IMG/VR virus record: IMGVR_UViG_3300043411_000407
Coordinates: 1 to 34,665 of that record
Origin: a virus
Strand: one strand, 5' to 3'
Length of the DNA stretch: 34,665 nt
Below the pieces are notes generated by a model. The model did not search any database, was not told where the DNA came from, and saw nothing but the letters and a program-made list of their open reading frames with translations. Made by a program: the position numbers and the translations under genes. Position 1 is the stretch's first letter. Every line of letters starts with the position of its first letter. Of the stretch, positions 3,150 to 34,616 are shown piece after piece.

Positions 3150-3568
3150 CATGGGAACTAACACCAGAATTAGAGAATGATATTCTTACCAACCTGGAAA
3201 ATGGAGTTGGGCTACGCAAATGGTGTGAAGTAGAAGGAAGACCAAGCCGATCAACTATATTGCGATGGCAGCGTGAGAATGCAGATTTTGAAGCCAAGTG
3301 CGCGCACGCACGCGAGGCTGCTGGGGAGTTGGCTGCTGAAGAACATTATGAAGTAACAATGGATTGCTTGGCTGGTGTTGTCTCTCCTGATGTTGCTGGG
3401 CGTGTTTTAAGCGCGATGCAATGGAGAGCGGCAAAGCTTGCAAGTAAGAAATTCGGTGAAAGCACGCAAGTTAAGCACGCTGACGCTGATGGCAACAAAC
3501 TGGACATTGTAAGCCTTGTTCAAGCATTGGATGGAACTAGCACTGGTTTGCCTAAAATAGGGGGATAA
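3146..3568 (+). CDS. terS: Terminase small subunit
   Basis: Encodes 140 residues, the DNA-recognition subunit of the packaging motor. Residues 1-45 form a helix-turn-helix region with the CEVEGRPSRSTILRW signature typical of Sf6/P22-type small terminases. A long helical oligomerisation region (about 45-100, AAEEHYEVTMDCL through RVLSAMQWRAAKLASKKFG) follows, and then a flexible acidic tail that would contact the large subunit. The RxLSAMQWRAAKLxPKxFG-like segment is a strong family mark. It precedes the large terminase, separated by an HNH gene. ATGA overlap with the gene before. Confidence 0.88.
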   Translation: MTWELTPELENDILTNLENGVGLRKWCEVEGRPSRSTILRWQRENADFEAKCAHAREAAGELAAEEHYEVTMDCLAGVVSPDVAGRVLSAMQWRAAKLASKKFGESTQVKHADADGNKLDIVSLVQALDGTSTGLPKIGG

Positions 3569-3570
3569 TT

Positions 3571-3681
3571 ATGCAAGTGCCTGATTATTCAAACTTCGGC
3601 AATTATAACGATTATTGCGACCATCGCAAATGGGTTGAATCTAAAAAGGCAAAACTAGGAACAAAAGATGGCAAAAATTAG
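3571..3681 (+). CDS. 36-residue hypothetical protein
   Basis: A short ORF three bases after the small terminase stop, rich in Asn, Tyr and Asp in its first half (PDYSNFGNYNDYCDHRKW) and basic in its second. It overlaps the HNH gene start by 14 bases. No family recognised. Support is positional only: it fills an otherwise empty 100 bases in a packed operon. Confidence 0.4.
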   Translation: MQVPDYSNFGNYNDYCDHRKWVESKKAKLGTKDGKN

Positions 3682-3985
3682 AAATGCTAAATATTTAAGG
3701 TGGAAGAAAAAAAACCAAAAACCTAACACCAACATTAAGGGCTGGTCTGTTATTAGGAAGAATATAATTGAGCGCGATAGTTATATTTGCAGAATATGTG
3801 GCGATGATTTGGATTTACACGTGCATCACATCGATTCAAATAGGTCAAATAATGACAATTCCAATCTTGTGACTCTATGCCGAGACTGCCATATGGCAAT
3901 ACATGAAGAGCGTTACGTTCCTTGGGAGCATGATGATTATCCTTGCCCGTGGGGTGTAATCGAGCCTAACCCGCAGAAACCCTAG
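3668..3985 (+). CDS. HNH endonuclease
   Basis: Encodes 105 residues. It has a classical zinc-stabilised HNH fold: CRIC (Cys41, Cys44), the HVHHID core (His53-His54), Asn66 in NSNL, and CRDCH with a final His79. N-terminal residues 1-30 are Lys/Arg-rich, probably DNA-contacting. HNH proteins next to terminase genes take part in end-cleavage during packaging in several phages. Free-standing homing HNH genes also occur, and its insertion between terS and terL would suit either. The start overlaps the previous small ORF. Confidence 0.88.
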   Translation: MAKIRNAKYLRWKKKNQKPNTNIKGWSVIRKNIIERDSYICRICGDDLDLHVHHIDSNRSNNDNSNLVTLCRDCHMAIHEERYVPWEHDDYPCPWGVIEPNPQKP

Positions 3986-4002
3986 AGCTAGTTTTTTGCA
4001 AA

Positions 4003-5532
4003 ATGAATGAGCAAGAAGCCTATACCAAGCTGCGGGATGAGTACCTATCCAATCAGGAGTGGCGATTAAACAATTTATACCACATCCGCGATAAGAACGG
4101 CGTTAAGGTTATTTTGAAATTCAACTGGGCGCAGCGTTCATTCTTATCAGCAATATGGTATTTTAATGTTATTCTAAAGGCTCGCCAGCTTGGATTCTCA
4201 ACTATCATCTGCATTTACTTCCTTGATTGTTCTTTGTTCAATAGCAATCATAAGTGCGGTATTATTGACTCAGGCATTGATGACGCTAAGAAAAAGCTCA
4301 AGATGATTAAATTCGCCTATGATAATATCCCCGCTTATATTTTGAATAACCCATTAATTGGAATCCCGACAATGACTACAAACGCCGCTGAATTGGTGGC
4401 GTTTAGCAACGGTTCAGAAATATCAGTTGGCACTTCACACCGTGGCGATACCCTGCAAAAGCTTCTTATTAGCGAGTACGGCAAGGTAAGCGCTGCTACA
4501 CCTGAGAAGGCTAGAGAGATTAAAACAGGCGCATTAAATGCCGTTGGTATTGGACAGCAGATATTTGTGGAATCAACTGCGGAGGGTAAGTCAGGTGAGT
4601 TTTACGACCTATGCAAATCAGCTATTAACTTGAAAGATTCAGGTAAAGCCCTAAGCAAGCTAGAGCCTAGATTCCATTTCTATTCATGGTTCGATAATCC
4701 AGAGTATAAGCTTAGTGATGAGGATGTTAACAACATAGTTATCCCCAAAGAAACCGAAGCATATTTAAGTAATTTCAACCTAACCGCCAATCAAAAAGCG
4801 TGGTACGCTGTAAAGGAAAAGATTATGGGTGATGACATGCGTAGAGAATATCCTTCTAATCCATCAGAGGCTTTCGAGGGTTCAACCGAGGGTTCTTATT
4901 ACAAGAAAGAAATGGCAGAGATTAGAAAGAATGGACAAATAAGCTTTGTCCCTTACAATAGGACGCATCAGGTTCACACTTACTGGGATTTAGGCAAAAC
5001 CCGTGACCAAAGCTCAATTATATTCTTTCAGGAGGTTAAGGGCAAAAAGTGTTTTATCGACTATGAAGAAAAAACTAATATCACGTGGGATTCATACGCC
5101 ATTATTCTAAAAGATCGTGGGTATAACTACGGCACGCATTACTGGCCGCATGATGGTAACTTCAATAATGTCACACAAAGCGAGATATTAACTAGCAAGC
5201 AAATGGCGCAAAGGGCTGGTATTAACCCTATTAAAGTTATTCCTGTAACAAAAAGCGTACACGAGGACGTACAGAATTATTGTAAGCCAATGCTAACACA
5301 AGTATGGATGGATGAAAGCAAATGCGCCCTATTAATAACACGATTAGACAATTACAAGCGCAAATGGGACAAGATAAACGCCATGTGGATGAATGAACAC
5401 GCCCACGATGAAGCCTCGCATGGTGCTGATGCTTTCAGGACTTTTGCCGTTCAGCAGTCTAAACATAAAGAAGAAACTGCATCTAAAATAATTGCCCCCG
5501 GTCATTTTGCACAAAGCTCACACCACATGTAG
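4003..5532 (+). CDS. terL: Terminase large subunit
   Basis: Encodes 509 residues, a normal length for P22/Sf6-type large terminases. It is the ATPase-nuclease that pumps DNA into the prohead and cuts the concatemer. The ATPase domain has a Walker A-like ARQLGFST at 60-67, a Walker B-like LLISEYG at 154-160 (catalytic Glu158) and the coupling motif STAEG at 191-195. The RNase H-fold nuclease has its acidic residues at Asp329 (YWDLG), Asp384 (WPHDG) and Asp476 (HGADAF). There is no clear ribosome-binding site; the ATG follows TTTTTTGCAAA. Confidence 0.95.
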   Translation: MNEQEAYTKLRDEYLSNQEWRLNNLYHIRDKNGVKVILKFNWAQRSFLSAIWYFNVILKARQLGFSTIICIYFLDCSLFNSNHKCGIIDSGIDDAKKKLKMIKFAYDNIPAYILNNPLIGIPTMTTNAAELVAFSNGSEISVGTSHRGDTLQKLLISEYGKVSAATPEKAREIKTGALNAVGIGQQIFVESTAEGKSGEFYDLCKSAINLKDSGKALSKLEPRFHFYSWFDNPEYKLSDEDVNNIVIPKETEAYLSNFNLTANQKAWYAVKEKIMGDDMRREYPSNPSEAFEGSTEGSYYKKEMAEIRKNGQISFVPYNRTHQVHTYWDLGKTRDQSSIIFFQEVKGKKCFIDYEEKTNITWDSYAIILKDRGYNYGTHYWPHDGNFNNVTQSEILTSKQMAQRAGINPIKVIPVTKSVHEDVQNYCKPMLTQVWMDESKCALLITRLDNYKRKWDKINAMWMNEHAHDEASHGADAFRTFAVQQSKHKEETASKIIAPGHFAQSSHHM

Positions 5533-28185: not shown

Positions 28186-28235
28186 ATTCGCATATCACGA
28201 ATGTATTTGCAACAACTATTTTGCACAAAGTGAAA
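28186..28235 (-). promoter_or_regulatory. Operator pair and presumed leftward promoter
   Basis: ATTCGCATATCACGAAT (28186-28202) has perfect inverted 5-bp arms. TTTTGCACAAAGTGAAA (28219-28235) is a weaker relative. Their starts are 33 bp apart, about three helical turns. Both lie in the 82-base gap before the leftward gene at 28157. TTGCAA and TTGTTG on the minus strand between the sites could be -35 elements. The first site would then lie between -35 and -10, where a bound repressor would block polymerase. Confidence 0.62.
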
Positions 28236-28742: not shown

Positions 28743-29183
28743 CTATTGATTATAGTTATCCATAAGCCATTTAGCCTCATCCTCATGAGGTTCTGGCACG
28801 TTAAAACCTTTTTCCGCAGCTCGCTTGCGGCATAGCGTCATATACCCCTCTGCTTGTTTCACGCTCAGGTCATTCCATGATAGCCTATCTTCATCTTCTT
28901 CGCCTGTAAGAGCGTTTACAAACGGCTTATTAAACCCTCCAACTGCACGCATAAGGCTGTTGTGCATATCGTCTTTTGAATACCCTGCATAATGCTGGCA
29001 GAACTTATGCACAATCACTGCGAAGTAATACTTGCGCTGCTTATCGCTTGGCGTTTCTTCTGCTGCCCATATCTTTATCTTAATATGCTTGCCAGATAAC
29101 GCAGCAATACGCTCCCCCGCTAGTTTTGATATATAGGGGGGAAGCTTTCCTTCAGGTGATACTACTGCGTTAAGTGGTTGCAT
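28743..29183 (-). CDS. NinB-like recombination protein
   Basis: Encodes 146 residues from the ATG at 29183 (a TTG further upstream is less likely). Central SDKQRKYYFAVIVHKFCQHY followed by the LMRAVGGFN block and DLSVKQAEGYMTLCRKRAAE fits the lambda NinB (Orf) recombination-mediator family, in which a conserved 'xQRKxxF' helix and a C-terminal helix pair contact ssDNA and SSB. Overall identity to NinB looks low. It overlaps the end of the alpha-CTD-like gene by 14 bases. Confidence 0.6.
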   Translation of the reverse strand: MQPLNAVVSPEGKLPPYISKLAGERIAALSGKHIKIKIWAAEETPSDKQRKYYFAVIVHKFCQHYAGYSKDDMHNSLMRAVGGFNKPFVNALTGEEDEDRLSWNDLSVKQAEGYMTLCRKRAAEKGFNVPEPHEDEAKWLMDNYNQ

Positions 29184-29667
29184 GGCTATTATACGCTGCA
29201 AAAGATAAACCAAGTCTATCAAGTTTATTTGAAACCTCTTTTAAGGATTTTCTTCCAAAATTTGGAATTCTTAGCATTTCTCCCTGTGTAAATTTCGTTA
29301 ATTGGTCAACGGTTCTTATGCCATCATTATATAGGCAGTTAATAGACCTCACAGATAAATCAAGCGATGCCACTAAAATCTCGGTGGAGGGAACATCTCT
29401 CTCAACCGTTTTAATATCAACCTCTTTTATAACCACTGGCTTATTAGCGAGAGCCAAAAGGCTTTTAATATTGCGCTGCACTTTATCTTTGTTTTTGTTG
29501 CACATATTATTTATAGTTTGCTTGCAGCAACCATATTTCTGTGCAAGCTCCCCTACAGTCATTTTGTTTTCACCAAAGCCAAAAACGTGCTTCTGCCTAT
29601 TAAACACAACATCAATCGTTCGCTCGACTTGTGTTTTTAGCAAACTCTCTATAATAAACTGTTTCAT
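29170..29667 (-). CDS. Sigma-region-4-like HTH fused to RNA polymerase alpha C-terminal domain
   Basis: Encodes 165 residues from the ATG at 29667, with TAGGAG five bases upstream. Residues about 97-156 closely match the bacterial RNA polymerase alpha C-terminal domain: LDLSVRSINCLYNDGIRTV, then IPNFGRKSLKEV and LDRLGLSF. All seven residues corresponding to E. coli alpha R265, N268, C269, G296, K298, S299 and E302 (here R107, N110, C111, G138, K140, S141, E144) are kept, so it should bind UP-element-like DNA. Residues about 15-58 look like sigma region 4 (VERTIDVVFNRQKHVFGFGE, MTVGELAQKYGCCKQTINNM), an HTH. A soluble factor carrying both upstream-promoter-contacting parts of polymerase would be expected to redirect or titrate host transcription. 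It lies in the recombination operon. Confidence 0.8.
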   Translation of the reverse strand: MKQFIIESLLKTQVERTIDVVFNRQKHVFGFGENKMTVGELAQKYGCCKQTINNMCNKNKDKVQRNIKSLLALANKPVVIKEVDIKTVERDVPSTEILVASLDLSVRSINCLYNDGIRTVDQLTKFTQGEMLRIPNFGRKSLKEVSNKLDRLGLSFAAYNSHATT

Positions 29668-29675
29668 AATTACTC

Positions 29676-29945
29676 CTAAAACCAATAATGTGGGCTGAAT
29701 GGAATCTCATCGGATAGCAACGCACCCGGGCTAGGCTGATAAGCATTAGCCTTTGCTTCGTTGTGGGGTGTTTGCTCCTGCCTAGCCTCTTTCGGTTTAT
29801 ACTTGCCAGAAAACCCCTTTTTCCCCTCTTTTGCCGCCCATAGAGCAAACTCATGCTCTACGCCGTCAATCTTCATATAGCCCTTAAAAAGCGGCTTGTT
29901 GCCCTCTACAGGTCTATTGTCAAATAGTGTAATGTATCCTTCCAT
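29676..29945 (-). CDS. Probable single-stranded DNA-binding protein
   Basis: Encodes 89 residues. The beta-rich first 50 residues (YITLFDNRPVEGNKPLFKGY, IDGVEHEFALWAAKEGK) look like a reduced OB fold as in small phage ssDNA-binding proteins. A disordered Pro/Gln linker follows, and then the acidic DEIPF (79-83) near the C-terminus, like the tip by which SSB recruits partners (consensus DDDIPF). The extra SPHYWF after the tip is unusual. It sits beside exonuclease and ERF genes, matching a recombination SSB. Confidence 0.55.
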   Translation of the reverse strand: MEGYITLFDNRPVEGNKPLFKGYMKIDGVEHEFALWAAKEGKKGFSGKYKPKEARQEQTPHNEAKANAYQPSPGALLSDEIPFSPHYWF

Positions 29946-29946
29946 A

Positions 29947-30564
29947 TCATCCCCTTAGTTTGTTAAGTTGCTCTAGCTTTTCTTCCATTTCAGCAAGGAA
30001 TTTTTCCACCTCGCCTTCAATGGTTGCTATCAGCTCGTCATCACGTTCTACCCGCTGAATTTTAATTTGCAATTCTACGGGCAAGCGCGGGTCGAAGCTC
30101 ACAAAATCACACCATCTCCTGCCAGTGCAAGCCATTTGAAACTGCATTTGGTAAATGTATTTTGTATCAATGCTCGCGCCTAGCAATGTGTCGAGGTGTG
30201 TACTCGTGTTAGGTGCTTTAATCTCAACCAATCCGTCATCGTTTACCAACCCATCAGGCGAAGCCCCCGCGCCTTTAATTCGTGGGTGCGGCACGAAGCC
30301 AGTTAGTTCTACGGCGTTATCAGTTAGGAATTGATACATATCCCGCGCTTTAGGCTCGTTATCCGTTCCCCATTGCATAGCGGCATTGGTGTAGGTTTCT
30401 TGCGAAGCTCCCGTGACACGCTCGACAATAAGAGCCGCCATATAGTTAGCTCTTGATGCGCTATAGCCTGACTTGGTTTTAGCCATAATGTCAGAGATAC
30501 GCGAAGCACCTACGTTGCCGCGCCTGTCATTAAGCCATTGCTCATTCTGCTGCGGGTTTAGCAT
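29947..30564 (-). CDS. YqaJ / lambda-exonuclease-type recombinase
   Basis: Encodes 205 residues, a 5'-3' dsDNA exonuclease of the YqaJ/lambda Exo fold. Motifs: WLNDRRGNVGASRISDIM (10-27) at the start, WGTDNEP (65-71) and the catalytic ASPDGL...LVEIKAP, giving Asp104, Glu114 and Lys116. QMQFQMACTGRRWCDFVSF (Q-motif) follows. It would resect DNA ends to provide ssDNA for the ERF protein encoded just upstream in the same operon. Overlaps the ERF gene by 23 bases. Confidence 0.92.
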   Translation of the reverse strand: MLNPQQNEQWLNDRRGNVGASRISDIMAKTKSGYSASRANYMAALIVERVTGASQETYTNAAMQWGTDNEPKARDMYQFLTDNAVELTGFVPHPRIKGAGASPDGLVNDDGLVEIKAPNTSTHLDTLLGASIDTKYIYQMQFQMACTGRRWCDFVSFDPRLPVELQIKIQRVERDDELIATIEGEVEKFLAEMEEKLEQLNKLRG

Positions 30565-31213
30565 TTTGTACCTTCTTTCTTTTCAGAAGCTCTATAGCCG
30601 TAGCAAAGTCACCTGATTTAATTTTACGCACATCATCAACTTTGAAGTATGCAAGAAAAGCCGCTTTATCTACTTTAAGTTCGTTTACCAGCACGTCAAT
30701 CTCTACGGCTTGCTCGGTGGTGATAGGCTGTGCGCTTTTAACTTCATGTGTGGCATTTTCTGAATCATTATCTCCCTCGGTAGGAATACAGAATGCTTGC
30801 ATACAAGCATACTTAAACGCCGCCGACATCGCCTTGTTTGTGGCCTTATCTCCTGAATCCATAGCCTCGCCATACATGCAGACCTCATGTTTGCTGCCAT
30901 CCCATTTGCTTACAAAATCAAAGCGCATGGTCACGGTGATATAGAATAAAGCGTTACCCTTGCTACTGGTACGTTCTACCACTTCCCGCGATAGACAATA
31001 AGGCAAAACAGTCAATCCAGCTTCCGCAAGGTACGGAGCAAGTGCATTATATACATCATCAATACCACGGAATTTATAGCTTCCGCTATTGCCTGTTTGT
31101 GCGGTTCTATCCTTAGAAATACCTTCTTTTGCCAGCCGTTCAGTTACAAGAGATATTGCTTCGTAAACGGTTAGTTTTTTAGGTTCTTGTTTTTCTTGTT
31201 TCTCGCTAGTCAT
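30542..31213 (-). CDS. erf: ERF-family ssDNA annealing protein
   Basis: Encodes 223 residues. The ERF signature is clear: SYKFRGIDDVYNALAPYLAE (45-64), YITVTMRFDFVSKWDG, and GEAMDSGDKATNKAMSAAFK (115-134) with CIPTEGD following. It is the P22 Erf type, which forms rings and anneals complementary strands during phage recombination and genome circularisation. The C-terminal 50 residues look like a separate helical tail. Overlaps the small gene before as TAATG and works with the exonuclease after it. Confidence 0.93.
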   Translation of the reverse strand: MTSEKQEKQEPKKLTVYEAISLVTERLAKEGISKDRTAQTGNSGSYKFRGIDDVYNALAPYLAEAGLTVLPYCLSREVVERTSSKGNALFYITVTMRFDFVSKWDGSKHEVCMYGEAMDSGDKATNKAMSAAFKYACMQAFCIPTEGDNDSENATHEVKSAQPITTEQAVEIDVLVNELKVDKAAFLAYFKVDDVRKIKSGDFATAIELLKRKKVQNAKPAAE

Positions 31214-31493: not shown

Positions 31494-31556
31494 ATTCGCA
31501 CAACGTGAATACTAAGTCAAGCACAAAGTGAGAAAAATAATTCGCACAACACGAAT
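31494..31556. promoter_or_regulatory. Triple operator between divergent early units
   Basis: Three related 17-mers start exactly 23 bp apart: ATTCGCACAACGTGAAT (31494), TCAAGCACAAAGTGAGA (31517) and ATTCGCACAACACGAAT (31540). The first and last have near-perfect inverted arms ATTC-GAAT. A leftward TTGACT (-35) lies at 31515-31520, between the sites. Two-turn spacing and a weaker middle site copy the lambda operator plan. This region separates the leftward recombination unit from the rightward Cro-like gene. Confidence 0.75.
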
Positions 31557-31563
31557 AAATATA

Positions 31564-31627: not shown

Positions 31628-31843
31628 ATGCTATTACGCGATTACATGAAAGAAAAAAACATGAGTGCCGTGGGTTTTGGCAAGCTCATGGGATGGTGTC
31701 ACACAAAGGCATGGGAAGTATCTCATAATGGCAAGGATATCCGTTTGAGTGAGGCTATCGAGATTTACGAGAAAACCAAAGGCAAAGTGAAGCCAAAGGA
31801 TATTATTGAGGCTTATAAGGAGTTTTGGAAATACAAGGAATAG
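31628..31843 (+). CDS. Cro-like HTH regulator
   Basis: Encodes 71 residues. The layout is a Cro/YdaS-like domain: LLRDYMKEKNMSAVGFGKLM (helices 1-2), GWCHTKAWEVSHNGK (turn and recognition helix), DIRLSEAIEIYEKTKGKVKP (helices 4-5), then KDIIEAYKEFWKYKE. The 'LSxxxAIxIxxxTxGxVxPxDI' phrase is typical of small phage Cro proteins. AGGGG precedes the ATG. It lies beside the triple operator and is the obvious candidate to bind it. First gene of the rightward early operon. Confidence 0.78.
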   Translation: MLLRDYMKEKNMSAVGFGKLMGWCHTKAWEVSHNGKDIRLSEAIEIYEKTKGKVKPKDIIEAYKEFWKYKE

Positions 31844-33526: not shown

Positions 33527-34228
33527 ATGGATTGGTATCCCTTCTATCCTGCTTTGTATCGCGCCCATACGATGCATCTAACAGCCGAGCAGGACGGCAT
33601 TTACAGACGACTTATAGATTACTACATGGAATCACGGCAACCATTGCCTGATAACGACTTTGCATTGGCTAGAATTGCAGGGGTTGATAATGACTGCTTC
33701 AAGCATGCTTCAAGCATCCTACGAGCATTCTTCGAGCAAAGAGATGGGGTATTAAACCACAAGAAATGCGATGAATTGCTAGACGAGCAAGATTCTAAGT
33801 CAAAATTTTATGCAAAAAGAGCGAAAAAAGCAGCATCAATAAGACACGGCAAAACAAAGGATTTATGCTTGAAGCATGCTACTAGCAATAGTGAAGCAAT
33901 GCTTGGTGATGCTACAATAACAATAACAGAAACAACAAGAGATAATAAGAAAGAAAGTATAGATATTGCGCTAATCGCGCCCAAGCAACCAATTAAAAGA
34001 AAATCTCGTATTTCAGAAGATTGGGTTTTGCCTAGGGAGTGGGGGGAGTGGGCAGAGAGGCAAGGACTTGCTGGTGAGGAAATACTGAAAGAAGCTGAAA
34101 AGTTTAGGGATAGGCAAATATCACAAGGGGCTTCTTACGTTGATTGGAGTGCCACTTGGAGAAACTGGATTAGAAACCACATTGAATGGAGTAGTAAAAA
34201 TGGAAGCGTACACACCAAGGTCAAATAG
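33527..34228 (+). CDS. Replication protein, DUF1376/YdaU-like
   Basis: Encodes 233 residues. N-terminal 1-95 (MDWYPFYPALYRAHTMHLTA, GIYRRLIDYYMESRQPLPD, then LARIAGV) is a YdaU/DUF1376-type winged-helix domain, common in phage replication-initiation proteins. After a Lys/Ser linker, residues 170-220 (EWGEWAERQGLAGEEILKEA, then SYVDWSATWRNWIRNHIEW) match the C-terminal 'KFxxxxxxxGxxxxDWxATWRNWI' domain that such proteins share. It would bind the origin and help load the host helicase. It overlaps the next gene by 29 bases. Confidence 0.82.
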   Translation: MDWYPFYPALYRAHTMHLTAEQDGIYRRLIDYYMESRQPLPDNDFALARIAGVDNDCFKHASSILRAFFEQRDGVLNHKKCDELLDEQDSKSKFYAKRAKKAASIRHGKTKDLCLKHATSNSEAMLGDATITITETTRDNKKESIDIALIAPKQPIKRKSRISEDWVLPREWGEWAERQGLAGEEILKEAEKFRDRQISQGASYVDWSATWRNWIRNHIEWSSKNGSVHTKVK

Positions 34229-34616
34229 CAGTAAAAGAAGCTCAAAAGAGCAAATTTCAGATGCATTTAACGACCTTCACTATAAATGGCGCGATGGTAT
34301 GGATATAACCAGCTATCGCAAGGAAAAATACCAGCACGAAGGTTTGATGGTTAGGATGCACACCTTTATGGATGATAACTTGCTCGATATAGGTGCAAAG
34401 CTTATTGATGCTGGCAAGGCAACTCATAATTCTATCGTGGCTTGGCTTTCATGTTGTGAGTATAGCGAATATCCAAACGAAATACGGATATACACGCGCA
34501 GCCAGTGGTTTGCGGAAAGAGCGGCTAATATGTTTGGCGCGGCGATTTATGAAATAACAAAAAAGCCAGTGCGTTTTATGTTCAATCAATCGGTAAAAGA
34601 TAGGGTGGCAGCGTAA
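34200..34616 (+). CDS. DnaA-domain-I-like protein (possible replication partner)
   Basis: Encodes 138 residues from the ATG at 34200 inside the end of the replication gene. The C-terminal 55 residues (SIVAWLSCCEYSEYPNEIRI, WFAERAANMFGAAIYEITKK) have the pattern of DnaA domain I, the module that contacts helicase and DnaA partners: a Trp helix, a beta pair, a long helix and a final strand. N-terminus is a basic Ser/Lys stretch. No AAA+ or DNA-binding DnaA domains are present. Following a DUF1376 gene, this may substitute for a helicase loader. The assignment rests on pattern only. Confidence 0.5.
   Translation: MEAYTPRSNSSKRSSKEQISDAFNDLHYKWRDGMDITSYRKEKYQHEGLMVRMHTFMDDNLLDIGAKLIDAGKATHNSIVAWLSCCEYSEYPNEIRIYTRSQWFAERAANMFGAAIYEITKKPVRFMFNQSVKDRVAA

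Follow-up and report, generated by a model that had tools for sequence, protein, structure and literature searches.

A phage-encoded protein that joins a helix-turn-helix to an RNA polymerase alpha C-terminal domain

Why would a phage carry the C-terminal domain of the RNA polymerase alpha subunit (alpha-CTD) without the rest of that subunit? The question is raised by a short gene, here called P0001 (positions 29170-29667, minus strand), in a 34.7-kb IMG/VR virus record, all 34,665 nucleotides of which were analysed (the window). Translation, Pfam searches and an AlphaFold (AF2) model show that its 165 amino acid product consists of an N-terminal helix-turn-helix (HTH), a linker and an alpha-CTD. 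The record encodes a P22-like head module with terminase, portal, scaffold, coat and ejection proteins, and the phage is a P22-like podophage. Since the closest terminase from a cellular genome, a 51% match, belongs to an uncultured alphaproteobacterium, the host is probably alphaproteobacterial, although this is a weak assignment. Elsewhere in the window, the ORF at 34140-34616 adjoins a DUF1376 replication gene and contains, by eye, a DnaA-like segment in its C-terminal part.

An alpha-CTD encoded within a recombination operon

The gene lies inside a recombination operon, as a sequence-only reading of this DNA had proposed. On the minus strand, an Erf-family annealing protein (30542-31213; PF04404, 4e-21) is followed by a YqaJ-family exonuclease (29947-30564; PF09588, 7e-27), an SSB-like protein (29676-29945; phrog_18154, 7e-6), P0001, a NinB/Orf-like recombination mediator (28743-29183; phrog_72, 6e-8), and then an HNH-type gene with small ORFs. 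The P0001 start codon follows the stop codon of the SSB-like gene at a distance of 8 nt and has AGGAG 5 nt before the ATG, within a ribosome-binding site region at 29668-29677 (minus strand); at its other end the stop of P0001 overlaps the NinB/Orf-like gene by 14 nt, measured from the likely ATG of the latter. The profile score, the ribosome-binding site and the operon spacing rule out a chance ORF.

The C-terminal half of P0001 is a genuine RNA polymerase alpha-CTD. Residues 93-150 (29218-29391, minus strand) matched the Pfam profile RNA_pol_A_CTD (PF03118) in hmmscan with an E-value of 7e-22 and 77.4 bits against a curated cut-off of 23.8 (4.6e-23 for the six-frame match), the top PDB sequence match was a bacterial RpoA chain (8e-14), and the domain is 54-57% identical to bacterial alpha-CTDs. 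Residues 101-150 were modelled by AlphaFold with a pLDDT of 96-98, and Foldseek placed the model on the B. subtilis alpha-CTD (1z3e_B) at 0.7 angstrom over 62 columns (TM 0.89 by target); its further matches included the Caulobacter alpha-CTD bound to AT-rich DNA, as well as the complex of alpha-CTD, sigma region 4 and UP DNA (3n97). The profile match and the fold thus bear out the earlier assignment of an alpha-CTD to the C-terminus of this ORF, and the seven DNA-contact residues named at that time were each found exactly at the position given. These are R107, N110, C111, G138, K140, S141 and E144, equivalent to E. coli alpha R265, N268, C269, G296, K298, S299 and E302, such that all seven UP-element contact residues are present. 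A generic helix-hairpin-helix (HHH_5) was rejected, with no match at E <= 1 in Pfam; similarity to helix-hairpin-helix proteins without an alpha-CTD match, the result that the sequence-only reading had said would speak against it, did not occur.

In fold, sequence and the seven UP-element contacts, P0001 resembles the host alpha-CTD (E. coli RpoA 249-329). Unlike host RpoA, however, it is phage-encoded, has an HTH fused on and lacks the alpha N-terminal dimerisation/assembly domain, with RpoA equivalogs scoring 50-69 bits against cut-offs of 228-523. Because the assembly domain is absent, P0001 is not an RpoA alpha subunit. Compared with the E. coli domain, D259 and most of the 287 determinant are also altered. 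In alpha-CTD, D259 and E261 make up the 261 determinant, which contacts sigma region 4. The acid at E261 is kept in P0001 as D103, and the one at E273 as D115; the D259 position is occupied by S101. With its sigma-contact patch half kept (D103, S101), contact between P0001 and polymerase is possible but not assured.

The N-terminal helix-turn-helix and its possible targets

Residues from about 33 to 63 of P0001 (29479-29571, minus strand) are a helix-turn-helix. Pfam returned weak generic HTH matches for the N-terminus, the segment is collinear with three phage relatives (L006, L007 and L063), and its pLDDT in the AlphaFold model is 72-89. This model has helices at 38-45 and 49-75, the second being long, and a 28-residue helix in front of them; modelled on their own, the N-terminal 92 residues gave a poor result (pLDDT 51).

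The earlier description of the N-terminus as sigma-region-4-like stood in part. By its own sequence P0001 has no match to Sigma70_r4 (PF04545) at E <= 1 in Pfam, and hhalign with the single sequence gave 1.7% for sigma region 4, 4% for LacI, 17% for SpoIIID and 45% for phage HTH-alpha-CTD relatives. The HTH is nonetheless collinear with relatives of sigma-region-4 type: L006 and L007, themselves HTH-alpha-CTD phage proteins, align with P0001 over its residues 20-156, L006/L063 reach 96.8% against sigma region 4 in hhalign, and L063 matches Sigma70_r4 at 6e-10. A family profile including P0001 gave 78% against sigma region 4 in hhalign, driven by L006/L063, and in the PDB matched RpoH (1e-5) and SigA chains (from 2e-4), a match likewise driven by relatives. 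The sigma-region-4 reading is therefore supported indirectly, by this collinearity and by the recurrence of Sigma70_r4 together with RNA_pol_A_CTD in phage proteins, and we class the P0001 HTH with those found in HTH-alpha-CTD phage proteins, with a possible origin in sigma region 4. It has no close homologue, so that no conserved target can be deduced for it.

Candidate sites for an HTH protein do occur in the window. Upstream of the P0001 operon are three operator-like repeats of the ATTCGCACAACGTGAAT type at exactly 23-nt spacing (31494-31557), in the interval that separates the left operon from a divergently oriented gene for a 71-aa HTH protein (31628-31843). Single-mismatch copies are found at 1392-1408 and 28186-28202, and sites of this type total 8 matches against 1.8 expected. 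The arrangement at 31494-31557 looks like an OL/OR-type control region, but no CI-like repressor gene was recognised in the window. A promoter scan performed no better than shuffles. P0001 could accordingly be imagined as an autoregulator or repressor whose HTH sits on phage operators and shuts off early promoters, with the alpha-CTD only stabilising the complex. The excess of operator-like sites at the operon head, at 28186 and at 1392 would suit such a role, but nothing ties P0001 to them and the adjacent 71-aa HTH protein is their more natural ligand, making this a very unlikely explanation.

Free alpha-CTD proteins in other phages

A scan of viral contigs with P0001 as a single protein found no relatives; an alpha-CTD alignment was therefore used instead. 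A degenerate alpha-CTD pattern was scanned across 2.9 million viral contigs, yielding 133 confirmed loci, of which 80 were analysed. Among conserved positions the pattern fixed only G296, N294 and surrounding residues, leaving R265, N268, K298, S299 and E302 outside it. These 80 loci contained 61 distinct free alpha-CTD proteins including P0001, all passing E 1e-3 for RNA_pol_A_CTD and forming 46 clusters at 70% identity. Related free alpha-CTD proteins are thus common in uncultured phages. Most matches in a collection of phage genomes (H1, H2 and probably similar records) were rejected as phage evidence, being bacterial rpoA contamination; L004 and L005 (MT836419, MT837142), and probably similar OR84xxxx records, are pieces of bacterial chromosome within that collection, and the two were discarded because they carry a full rpoA beside ribosomal protein genes.

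The R265 equivalent is invariant in the phage proteins (46/46 clusters), followed by E302 (95%), S299 (88%), N268 (79%) and K298 (73%), and dN/dS was 0.13-0.32 for seven pairs of relatives. These results show purifying selection on the alpha-CTD module in phages, across many architectures. In about half the domain is C-terminal, behind another domain, and in about 17 clusters it is N-terminal and followed by a C-terminal extension. Sigma70_r4 is found in 8 of the 61 proteins, above the cut-off in L013, L028, L039, the L063 group (L063/L072/L074) and L077 and below it in L047, such that the two domains occur together in five or more groups of phage proteins. Like P0001, the above-cut-off proteins hold an HTH and an alpha-CTD in one short phage protein; their HTH is clearly sigma region 4, an identity that the sequence of P0001 does not show by itself. 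The 334-aa L077 protein (3386-4390) has the order DUF6891, alpha-CTD, Sigma70_r4, and in L047 the alpha-CTD and Sigma70_r4 are reversed in the same way. A second family scan with the L039/L028 sigma-region-4 type recovered just those two loci.

Other phage proteins share the alpha-CTD module but differ in what is joined to it: Ruegeria phage V16 AWY09459 combines it with a MazG-like pyrophosphatase and Bacillus phage Goe8 QDP42789 with an unknown domain of ~150 aa. The C-terminal part of the V16 protein (L003, 4001-4789) is labelled pyrophosphatase in the RefSeq copy and is MazG-like by eye. Closest host sequences lie in different phyla, with L044 85% identical to an alphaproteobacterial alpha-CTD, L058 80% identical to that of E. 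coli, and L028, L039 and the Goe8 protein closest to Firmicutes; this suggests several separate captures, although a domain of only 58 residues cannot support a firm tree. Across 115 genomes from one alphaproteobacterial class, nearly every alpha-CTD match was rpoA and short extra copies were rare (e.g. L209), a near-absence indicating that the free alpha-CTD is mainly a phage use. L209 (1432-2127) encodes a 231-aa free alpha-CTD protein in an alphaproteobacterial MAG, between malate dehydrogenase-like and phosphomannomutase-like genes.

The recombination setting of P0001 was weighed against these loci. P0001 might be a DNA- or junction-binding accessory of the Erf/YqaJ/NinB system, its polymerase ancestry being incidental, as had been raised earlier as an alternative. 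Its placement within the Erf-YqaJ-SSB-NinB operon is real and includes a translational overlap, and genes within two places of other phage alpha-CTDs encode DNA polymerase, RecE-like exonuclease, RecT, helicase, primase, resolvase and terminase. However, an alpha-CTD is missing from the nearest full-length relative found for this phage (36.4 kb, with an 87% identical terminase), whose operon reads Erf, a 129-aa gene and a NinB-like gene (labelled by position and visual similarity), and across 80 Erf-bearing loci no alpha-CTD turned up within about 4 kb. The P0001 gene is thus accessory, being missing from a close relative, and a dedicated recombination role is not favoured. A YqaJ homologue was picked up by phmmer at just one further alpha-CTD locus, 3 kb off, and what is conserved in the domain are minor-groove duplex contacts, not junction features. 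The neighbours of phage alpha-CTD genes are mostly early-region genes and may merely mirror that location, and we read no specific link from them. We regard the recombination accessory as quite improbable.

A candidate transcription adaptor

Taken together, we give about an even chance to P0001 being a DNA-binding regulator of transcription that works early in infection and settles on AT-rich promoter DNA beside or instead of the host alpha-CTD. Its HTH would read a specific DNA site, and the captured alpha-CTD would grip the AT-rich minor groove in the way the host domain grips UP elements. From a site immediately upstream of the -35 region, P0001 would act as a detachable alpha-CTD that adds contacts at phage promoters, possibly also touching sigma region 4 there, and on UP-type DNA it could displace the host alpha-CTD. 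The solved structure of alpha-CTD and sigma region 4 on UP/-35 DNA (3n97) illustrates how both domains can sit side by side. We infer from these features that P0001 binds DNA, contacts polymerase and has an effect of activation and not repression; it may plausibly recruit polymerase to phage promoters.

The regulator is made plausible by the identity and fold of the alpha-CTD, the invariant equivalent of R265, which is the central UP-element contact of alpha-CTD (PMC2988021, PMC3828302), the second DNA-binding domain, the acids kept as D103 and D115, the purifying selection among relatives, the near-absence of free alpha-CTDs from the alphaproteobacterial genomes, the suggested repeated captures, and the existence of relatives with true Sigma70_r4. 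Counting against it, D259 is S101 in P0001 and just 18 of the 46 phage clusters keep both the D259 and E261 acids; P0001 lacks the alpha N-terminal domain that would tether it to polymerase; its gene is among recombination, not transcription, genes; and its HTH has no close homologue.

Phages are known to act on this part of the host enzyme by other routes. T4 ModA/Alt ADP-ribosylate alpha R265 (PMC2988021) and phiKMV Rac induces cleavage by which the alpha-CTD is lost (PMC7552054). These proteins, together with T4 MotA/AsiA (sigma appropriation), act at the sigma-region-4 or the alpha-CTD part of host polymerase, as proposed for P0001, but they are unrelated to it and modify, remove or block parts, whereas P0001 supplies a copy. 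P0001 might serve as an UP-element decoy that competes with the host alpha-CTD at strong host promoters (e.g. rRNA) and thereby reduces host transcription, in a non-enzymatic parallel to T4 ModA and phiKMV Rac. All UP contacts are kept in P0001, phages disable the host alpha-CTD by other means (PMC2988021, PMC7552054), and the relatives L037 and L064, at 81-84 aa, are scarcely more than an alpha-CTD. A decoy would nevertheless have no need of an HTH, yet many relatives carry an HTH, sigma region 4, MazG-like or other domains, and high protein levels would be needed against two tethered alpha-CTDs per polymerase. On balance we find the decoy unlikely.

The annotation of phage alpha-CTD domain proteins is already known: Erythrobacter phage L02 ORF40 is annotated as a phage alpha-CTD protein (PMC9127768) and BFVD contains entries named as phage alpha-CTD domain proteins. 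These have a free alpha-CTD in common with P0001, which differs in having its own HTH N-terminus without close homologue. A literature search covering few subscription journals or preprints found no functional study of phage alpha-CTD proteins.

More broadly, and only tentatively since we hold it to be somewhat doubtful, phages of several host phyla may have repeatedly excised the host alpha-CTD and fused it with HTHs of the sigma-region-4 type or of other types. The products, P0001 being one, would be free promoter-reading adaptors that present -35- and UP-reading contacts on a single small protein, and would retarget host polymerase or replace an alpha-CTD disabled in the course of infection. 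T4 and phiKMV-like phages disable the alpha-CTD, while phages of the P0001 type supply their own copy, in many architectures and under selection. If it is true that P0001-type proteins redirect polymerase, they would represent a simple and undescribed route to reprogram host transcription, and would offer a testable natural separation of the alpha-CTD from polymerase.
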